Below, in pieces: positions 1-16,483 of a DNA stretch of 28,173 bases (the stretch's first letter is position 1; each line of letters starts with the position of its first letter). The stretch covers positions 1 through 28,173 of IMG/VR virus record IMGVR_UViG_3300023184_000424; one strand, 5' to 3'. The DNA comes from a virus. The notes under the pieces were generated by a model. It did not search any database. It saw nothing but the letters and a program-made list of their open reading frames with translations, and was not told the DNA's origin. The position numbers were made by a program, and so were the translations under genes.

Positions 1-301
1 GACACTCAATCAGTTTATGTTTGTGTATGTTACCATACTCCATGGACTATATCTTCAACTCATTTAAGAGTTGCTGGACGCTTAATCTTGTTATTAAGAG
101 GACTATACCTCTCAAGTAGTCTCTGCACCTTCCAAGAATGTATTCTTGGCTTGGCTCAATGTTGACCTATTATTCATAGGCTTTCTTTGAGTTCATCCAG
201 TTTTCCAATAAGGATCACTCCTTATGGTCACAATACTATGAGCCGCATCTATCAGTATTGCAATCAACGTATCTCACGATACGAAACAGCCAGCTTTTTT
301 T
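1..301 (-). ncRNA. group I intron (IA-like), 3' end outside window
   Basis: Read on the minus strand, this stretch folds as a group I self-splicing intron core. P3 is CTGGATG/CGTCCAG (194-200 with 74-80). P4 is CTCAA/TTGAG, P5 is CCTAT/ATAGG, and P6a is an 8-bp hairpin at 132-149. P7 joins the R element GTGCAGAGACTA (about 117-128) to the S element AAGATATAGTCC (44-55) through GACTA/TAGTC. P8 is at 56-73 and P9 is GTATG-GTAA-CATAC (25-38). Two extra hairpins between P7 and P3' (81-112) correspond to P7.1/P7.2, which mark subgroup IA. Two P2-region hairpins (268-283, 208-225) and P9 carry GNRA loops. No homing-endonuclease ORF is present. The 3' splice site cannot be fixed inside the window. 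The core identification is very secure. Confidence 0.93.
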
Positions 302-15651: not shown

Positions 15652-15680
15652 TTGACATTTTTATAAAATTAATATATATT
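15652..15680 (+). promoter_or_regulatory. near-consensus promoter for the structured RNA and tmRNA
   Basis: TTGACA (15652-15657), a 17-nt spacer, TATATT (15675-15680). The predicted start is about 15687. No other promoter is evident before the tmRNA, so the two RNAs are probably transcribed together and then processed. Confidence 0.85.
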
Positions 15681-15686
15681 TTTAAT

Positions 15687-16000
15687 TAGATAGTTGGTTC
15701 CCGATGAGCCAACGGGACTGGGAATACTCGGTCGAAACCAAAATCGGAAATATTGTTCTCTACCAGAGGCAGAGAATCTACAGAGGCTTAACCGTTGAGC
15801 CAGTATTGCGAATCAACGGTATTGATCTTTGATATATAAAATTTTGATAGTGTCGGGCGGGAATGGTATGATATGCTGTTCTCAAAAGCTAACCGCTTCT
15901 GACCTATCACCAGACTCGATTAGGCAGGGGGTAACAAGAAAACTTCGTCCAACGTGTTAAAAACACGGTAGCCAATGAAGAACTTTCTGGTAATTAATTT
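15687..16000 (+). ncRNA. structured non-coding RNA upstream of tmRNA, unknown class
   Basis: About 310 nt with no gene and clearly higher G+C than its surroundings. Visible structures: an H-type pseudoknot at its 5' end (TTGGTT 15694-15699/AGCCAA 15707-15712 with CCCG 15700-15703/CGGG 15713-15716); a 7-bp hairpin GACTGGG/CTCGGTC (15716-15733); TTCTCT/AGAGAA; a second pseudoknot (GGCT/AGCC with CCGTTG 15792-15797/CAACGG 15814-15819); and hairpin CGTGTT/AACACG (15953-15967). I compared it with RNase P, SRP, 6S, group I/II introns and hammerheads and found no convincing match. The 3' boundary is approximate. The 5' motif resembles elements at 553-584 and 903-938. Confidence 0.7.
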
Positions 16001-16011
16001 TTTAAATTTAT

Positions 16012-16483
16012 GGGGGTGACAGGAATCGACATTGAATTCTAGCTTCTCAGTGCATGTAGAGGATGATAGTTGGCCTCTTTAATAATCTATCAAAAACCTA
16101 AATGCAGAAAATTATATTTCTGACCTTTTAGCTGAAGCTGAGTATATCTTCAATAATGCTTCCGAGTTTCTCGGTGACGTTGTTGATAGTGTTGTTGATT
16201 TTTTCAACGGCGCTGACGAAGAATACGCACTCGCAGCCTAAAAGCCTAACGGTAATCCTCTAAATCCGTTTTGAATCGCAGAGGTTTTGATGAACTGTTA
16301 GATATCGTGTAAAAATTAATACAGAGGTGGTATGTGACCTCTCGCACATACAGGCAGACTTAAAAAAAGATGGTTAATAAGCCAAGACAGCCTTTAGTCA
16401 AAAAATGTTAAATTTATTAAAGCATGTAGATCTGAAAGTAAACGTTCATTGAACTCGGCTATCGTATGCCGACACCTCCACCA
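16012..16483 (+). ncRNA. ssrA: tmRNA with a 45-codon tag reading frame
   Basis: The tRNA-like ends pair (GGGGGTG 16012-16018 with CACCTCC 16473-16479), followed by A and encoded CCA. PK1 is AGAGG/CCTCT plus TGATAG/CTATCA (16058-16092). The resume codon GCA (16104) follows PK1 by 11 nt, the normal distance. The frame then stays open for 45 codons, starting AENYISDLL and ending ADEEYALAA, to TAA at 16239. PK2 (16248-16284), PK3 (16323-16351) and PK4 (16352-16399) are all visible. The T-arm stem TCGGC/GCCGA has an unusual 8-nt loop. At 472 nt it is about 100 nt longer than typical, which the long tag explains. Its product rescues stalled ribosomes and adds a tag ending in the ClpXP-type LAA. Confidence 0.95.

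Follow-up and report, generated by a model that had tools for sequence, protein, structure and literature searches.

A 45-residue tag in a phage tmRNA and the family of long tags to which it belongs

Background

The ssrA tags encoded by tmRNAs span 8-35 residues according to a review of these systems (PMC8012679), and in a 2025 database paper a tag length of 10 is the most frequent, the text discussing extremely short tags and not long ones (PMC11915505). In Escherichia coli, the reading frame of the tag is determined at positions -4 and -5, with A86 (-4) as the main determinant (PMC2481249). A long ssrA tag, of 32 residues by that paper's count, has been described in Mesoplasma florum, where it is read by the Lon protease (PMC3439342). 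Phage-encoded tmRNAs are also already known, from phage G, the Bxz1 group and Melnitz (PMC4131195, PMC9004378).

Here, we describe the tmRNA gene of a 28,173-nt stretch of viral DNA, analysed as a whole and hereafter called the window, on which all positions are counted. Sequence comparison indicates that its tag belongs to a genuine family of long-tag phage tmRNAs, under selection at the protein level and, at least partly, at the RNA level. The window tag is the longest of this family and, within the literature consulted, the longest known; we found no report of this phage tag family there.

Results

The window carries a complete one-piece tmRNA gene (Table 1), for which the original prediction had pointed to a covariance search. 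The match to the Rfam model RF00023 reaches 77.7 bits (E = 8.1e-29), above the curated gathering score of 47, and covers the whole model (positions 1-374). All 7 base pairs of the acceptor stem (GGGGGTG/CACCTCC) are formed, the third being a G-U pair, and ACCA follows; the T stem retains 5 of 5 pairs. The PK1 stems are paired in every member of the family, their alternative versions being compensated, and PK1 of the window ends 11 nt upstream of GCA 16104. With its paired acceptor and T stems, its PK1, an A at position -4, a stop-closed frame of 45 codons and protein-level selection across the family, the gene very probably encodes a working phage tmRNA. The non-canonical T loop counts against this explanation. 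ARAGORN missed the gene, perhaps because of this unusual loop.

Table 1. Features of the tmRNA locus, with positions counted on the window
Feature	Position	Strand	Basis or remark
One-piece tmRNA gene, complete, ACCA end encoded	16012-16483	+	RF00023 match and acceptor stem
PK1 pseudoknot, stems GAGG/CCTC and TGATAG/CTATCA	16059-16092	+	both stems pair throughout the family
Tag frame, 45 codons, resume codon GCA 16104, stop TAA 16239-16241	16104-16241	+	open frame, conserved family
Resume-codon hairpin CAGAAA/TTTCTG	16105-16122	+	covaries in relatives
Conserved core DLLAEAEYIFNNASEFL, predicted acidic amphipathic helix	16122-16172	+	alignment, structure prediction, hydrophobic moment, synonymous excess
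11-codon (33-nt) insertion, specific to the window and L009	16185-16217	+	peptide alignment and RNA fold, z = -5.5
Tag end ADEEYALAA, canonical-looking	16212-16238	+	34 of 39 distinct family peptides end in LAA
T arm TCGGC-TATCGTAT-GCCGA, 3' acceptor strand and ACCA	16452-16483	+	8-nt T loop, non-canonical

Three types of T loop occur under the same tag, namely UUCRAYU, the 8-nt UAUCGUAU of the window and the 9-nt GGGCAG[AC]AC (site at 16452-16476 of the window and in its relatives). The D-side sequence differs with each type, GGGCAG[AC]AC going with AATTAGATTTCGA, and exceptions are few (L012, L035 and L064). This suggests that the tRNA-like ends may have been exchanged as whole units, in which the elbow is altered. 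Directly upstream of the tmRNA lies a non-coding segment (15839-15993, + strand, and also 15680-15751 and 15759-15835), which about 20 related contigs retain at 84-98% identity; it has no Rfam match, and its consensus fold comprises 35 pairs, 5 of them with compensatory change; it is a candidate for an unknown phage RNA. A group I intron is found at the edge of the window (23-249, - strand; RF00028, 82.9 bits).

From GCA 16104 to GCC 16238, followed by TAA, the frame translates to AENYISDLLAEAEYIFNNASEFLGDVVDSVVDFFNGADEEYALAA (45 aa). The proteins encoded nearby were used to trace a 96%-identical contig (L002/L009), whose tag carries four differences, two of them synonymous and two conservative (D->E, E->Q), and a more distant contig (L004/L022) with a 35-codon tag and many synonymous differences. 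A degenerate pattern for DLLAEAEYIFN retrieved 41 viral contigs, with the tag in a tmRNA-like context in all of them. A second search pattern, made of PK1 only and blind to the tag, matched 76 contigs and provided 76 phage tmRNAs with readable tags, window included. The base at -4 is an A in all 76 and the base at -5 a T in 73. The tag core A[ED]DNTSDLLAEAEYIFNNADEFL..LAA is common to 64 of them, representing 50 distinct coding sequences and 39 distinct peptides. Tags of this family are 32-35 residues long, a version kept in 62 phage tmRNAs besides the window and the 96%-identical contig, and 45 residues long only in the window and L009. The few peptides without a final LAA (Table 1) end in MAA, LEA or LVA. 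The degenerate tag pattern had no match in one genome per species of 84,980 prokaryote species, nor did tblastn of the tag against 50,697 phage records (INPHARED). Tags are 56-85% identical between contigs with terminases 41-48% identical. In one member, the terminase is similar to that of T4-like cyanophages and of rhizobial phages. When ThyX and the terminase were used to look for a host, the matches pointed only to diverse phages.

The original prediction had placed resumption at GCA 16104 from the 11-nt PK1 spacing, had read 45 open codons from there to TAA 16239-16241, and had called the LAA end canonical in a tag exceeding a known range of roughly 8-35 residues. Each of these points holds: the A at -4 is invariant, the core shows a synonymous excess (see below), the 96%-identical contig keeps the frame, core codon changes among the relatives are mostly synonymous, the window tag ends in YALAA as most of its family ends in LAA, and the reviewed range is the same. 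Its broader idea was that of a possible phage-modified trans-translation system, whose added residues could redirect tagged proteins or give the tag an activity. The long tag is supported; the membership of the window tag, as the longest, in a family of 32-35-residue tags had not been foreseen.

Other long phage tags were encountered. A second group of phage tmRNAs (L096, L117, L144, L150, L152, L168 and L172) encodes acidic tags of 30-31 residues, AESFDYAPSVAEADAFLEATGFVGAELLAA. As in the window family, these tags (in L096, L117, L150 and others) are long, acidic, Ala-rich and end in LAA, but they have a weak hydrophobic moment, and homology between the two groups is unsupported (profile comparison probability 1%). 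Another phage tmRNA (L051:9466-9564, - strand) encodes a tag of 33 residues, AKAITSAVEAVKSAWSNVVEFFAPEENYCLMAA, which differs in sequence and is likewise amphipathic (p = 0.002).

Within the core codons (alignment columns 7-22), 21 of the 28 distinct single-step changes are synonymous, where 7.1-8.6 would be expected (p between 5.8e-8 and 1.7e-6, the range being set by transition bias). Each distinct change was counted once, without placing independent events on a tree, and the p values are therefore approximate. No single-step change affects a second codon position of the core. Constraint is weaker in the C-terminal part of the tag (p = 0.02-0.05), and none is detectable at the protein level in the six codons that follow the resume codon (p = 0.2-0.4). 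AlphaFold2, run on a family alignment that is shallow and made of near relatives, predicted a single helix over residues 2-44 (mean pLDDT 82). The whole window tag is more amphipathic than its shuffles (hydrophobic moment, p = 0.0002), and a homology search of the PDB with the tag gave no support (best E 0.13).

The same nucleotides also fold as RNA: in the window, the 138 nt that encode the tag fold better than shuffles (z = -4.2). The 6-bp hairpin at the resume codon is 91% paired across 48 distinct relatives, a value that drops to 27-47% when the hairpin is slid. It shows 15 double-change cells, where shuffles give 3.1, and is lost or shortened where tags begin with ADNTDS, AEDNTDS or AEDNTA. 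Over the first six tag residues, the RNA covaries and no protein constraint is detectable, a combination that the original prediction had not foreseen. In a second hairpin (columns 24-29/34-39), 25 double-change cells were counted against 11.9, all of them pairing third with third codon positions, and the first- and second-position pairs stay fixed. This pattern fits a combined RNA and protein constraint, with moderate support because relatedness inflates double-change counts. In columns 44-86, a longer rod reaches 91% pairing and covaries no more than shuffles do, which shows a capacity to pair and is no proof of RNA constraint. Large parts of the coding region are able to form RNA pairs, so that its conservation may be partly RNA-level.

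The 11 additional codons of the window were delineated twice. In the peptide alignment, 11 columns are filled only by the window and L009, one edge column being shared with three relatives. Independently of this alignment, 16185-16217 emerges from the RNA fold as a side branch on the 3' strand of the rod. The insert forms a 12-bp hairpin (16187-16198 pairing with 16204-16215), equalled in stability by 0 of 200 shuffles. Its 11 residues correspond to about three helical turns, and, with 100 degrees per residue, its hydrophobic moment and that of the core are 14 degrees apart (within 15-44 degrees for 98-102); on this helix model, the insert prolongs the predicted amphipathic helix in phase. As the insert is an in-frame RNA hairpin, the residues that it encodes could in part be by-products. 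Neither this hairpin nor the folding of the tag RNA had been foreseen in the original prediction. An origin of the insert by duplication of the core was rejected, the in-frame similarity being unconvincing (p = 0.04-0.55 in six comparisons), as was a mobile palindromic repeat, the sequence having a single copy in the window and no occurrence outside the loci of the window and of the near-identical contig.

Potential partners of the tag were searched with control genomes that gave signals, in phage contigs of which many are fragments. SmpB was absent from the 32 phage contigs searched, and ClpS, Lon and SspB from the 20 searched; we thus infer that a host SmpB and a host protease are used. A ClpP-family protease was detected in 3 of 32 contigs. 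These three (L055, L061 and L074) form part of one long-tag subgroup, and the protease (E about 1e-26, 237-aa frame) could be a head protease or a degradation partner. A family scan of the flanking genes (RIIA/RIIB, ligases, ThyX) revealed no tag partner.

Discussion

The reading that we favour, at about even odds (probability near 0.5), is that of a working tmRNA relying on host factors, with a helical core acting as a recognition segment, a folded tag RNA and a tolerated insert. The host alanyl-tRNA synthetase would charge the RNA, which host SmpB and EF-Tu would load and carry. During infection, the tmRNA would enter stalled ribosomes and resume translation at GCA 16104, the unfinished protein gaining Ala and the 45 residues, i.e. 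A+AENYISDLLAEAEYIFNN..., and the LAA end would make the product a substrate of a host protease of the ClpXP type. The long conserved core may fold as an acidic amphipathic helix and offer an AAA+ protease or an adaptor an additional segment to recognise, the phage thereby changing which factor handles the rescued proteins. The hairpins of the tag RNA would have to melt during reading, and the 11 extra codons would be an in-frame hairpin, tolerated because the peptide helix is extended in phase. The absence of adaptor or SmpB genes on the phage contigs searched counts against this explanation, as does the RNA pairing that may account for part of the conservation. The conservation of the protein across divergent phages, with no occurrence in the sampled prokaryotes, suggests that the tag itself matters beyond ribosome rescue, and provides a testable peptide.

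A more specific picture can be drawn tentatively, with doubt prevailing over confidence. In a lineage of large phages, some of them T4-like by their terminase, the tag could be a dual-coded module, in which the same bases form RNA hairpins and encode an acidic amphipathic helix. This helix would direct the products of trans-translation to a particular protease or adaptor, or would interfere with proteolysis in the host, and both RNA and helix would have been lengthened in the window phage through one 33-nt hairpin.

The main rival to recognition of the protein is that RNA folding drives the length, which we regard as possible and still rather doubtful. The tag would then have been lengthened mainly by RNA hairpins, which could make the RNA compact, protect it from nucleases or control resumption, and, with a similar degree of doubt, the extra residues would be tolerated by-products, the last few sufficing for proteolysis. 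The resume-codon hairpin, which covaries over codons without protein constraint, the covariation of the second hairpin at third positions and an insert made of exactly one 33-nt hairpin all speak for it. However, first and second codon positions of the core are fixed though compensating pairs would be possible there, synonymous change is in strong excess in the core, and the covariation of the rod does not exceed that of shuffles.

An activity of the peptide itself, or of the proteins that carry it, is unlikely; in this view a host protease or adaptor could, for instance, be occupied by the tag, or products could be kept from degradation, and the tag would not be a better degradation signal. 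An acidic, predicted-helical core kept across divergent phages and not found in the sampled hosts would agree with such an activity, but nearly all tags have LAA-type ends, for which degradation is expected. Degeneration of the tmRNA, with the insert and the changed T loop as products of relaxed drift, is very improbable: the T loop is non-canonical and ARAGORN overlooked the gene, yet the acceptor-stem and T-stem pairs are all intact, the same kind of T loop occurs in 13 other contigs with full frames, and the insert is in frame and common to two contigs whose differences are non-disruptive. Resumption at GCT 16212, producing only ADEEYALAA downstream of a structural RNA, is scarcely credible and is answered by the purifying selection acting in frame upstream of 16212, together with the PK1 spacing and -4 A that indicate 16104 and the lack of an alanine codon at the equivalent of 16212 in most relatives.

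Nine-residue tags of this kind are indeed called by ARAGORN in some relatives. Its calls in this family never exceed 32 codons and begin many tags on a non-alanine codon, often inside the conserved core (EAEYIF...) or with nine codons only (ADEEMLLAA), the resume codon being misplaced in L014, L018, L036, L054, L066, L080 and others. Such misreading makes automatic calls unusable as an argument for a short tag. It also implies that ARAGORN-based annotation will under-report long tags, of which more may be hidden.

Comparison with known systems

The window tmRNA shares with the E. coli-type one-piece tmRNA (ssrA, RF00023) the G-U third acceptor pair, PK1, the resume codon GCA, the A at -4 and T at -5, a tag end of the form (D/E)-x-YALAA followed by a stop, and a downstream pseudoknot-like pairing. 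It differs by a tag of 45 codons instead of 10, a folded tag-coding RNA, another T loop and a phage-borne gene, without SmpB on the contigs searched. As in phage G, the Bxz1 group and Melnitz, the tmRNA is carried by a phage and presumably uses the host SmpB. The Melnitz tmRNA differs in consisting of two pieces and in being of the alphaproteobacterial type. A tblastn search with a Bxz1 tag sequence gave no match, and this tag was left out of the comparison. The best precedent for a long tag associated with a changed protease is Mesoplasma florum, as a functional analogy only, its long tag being bacterial instead of phage-borne and orthogonal to ClpXP tags.
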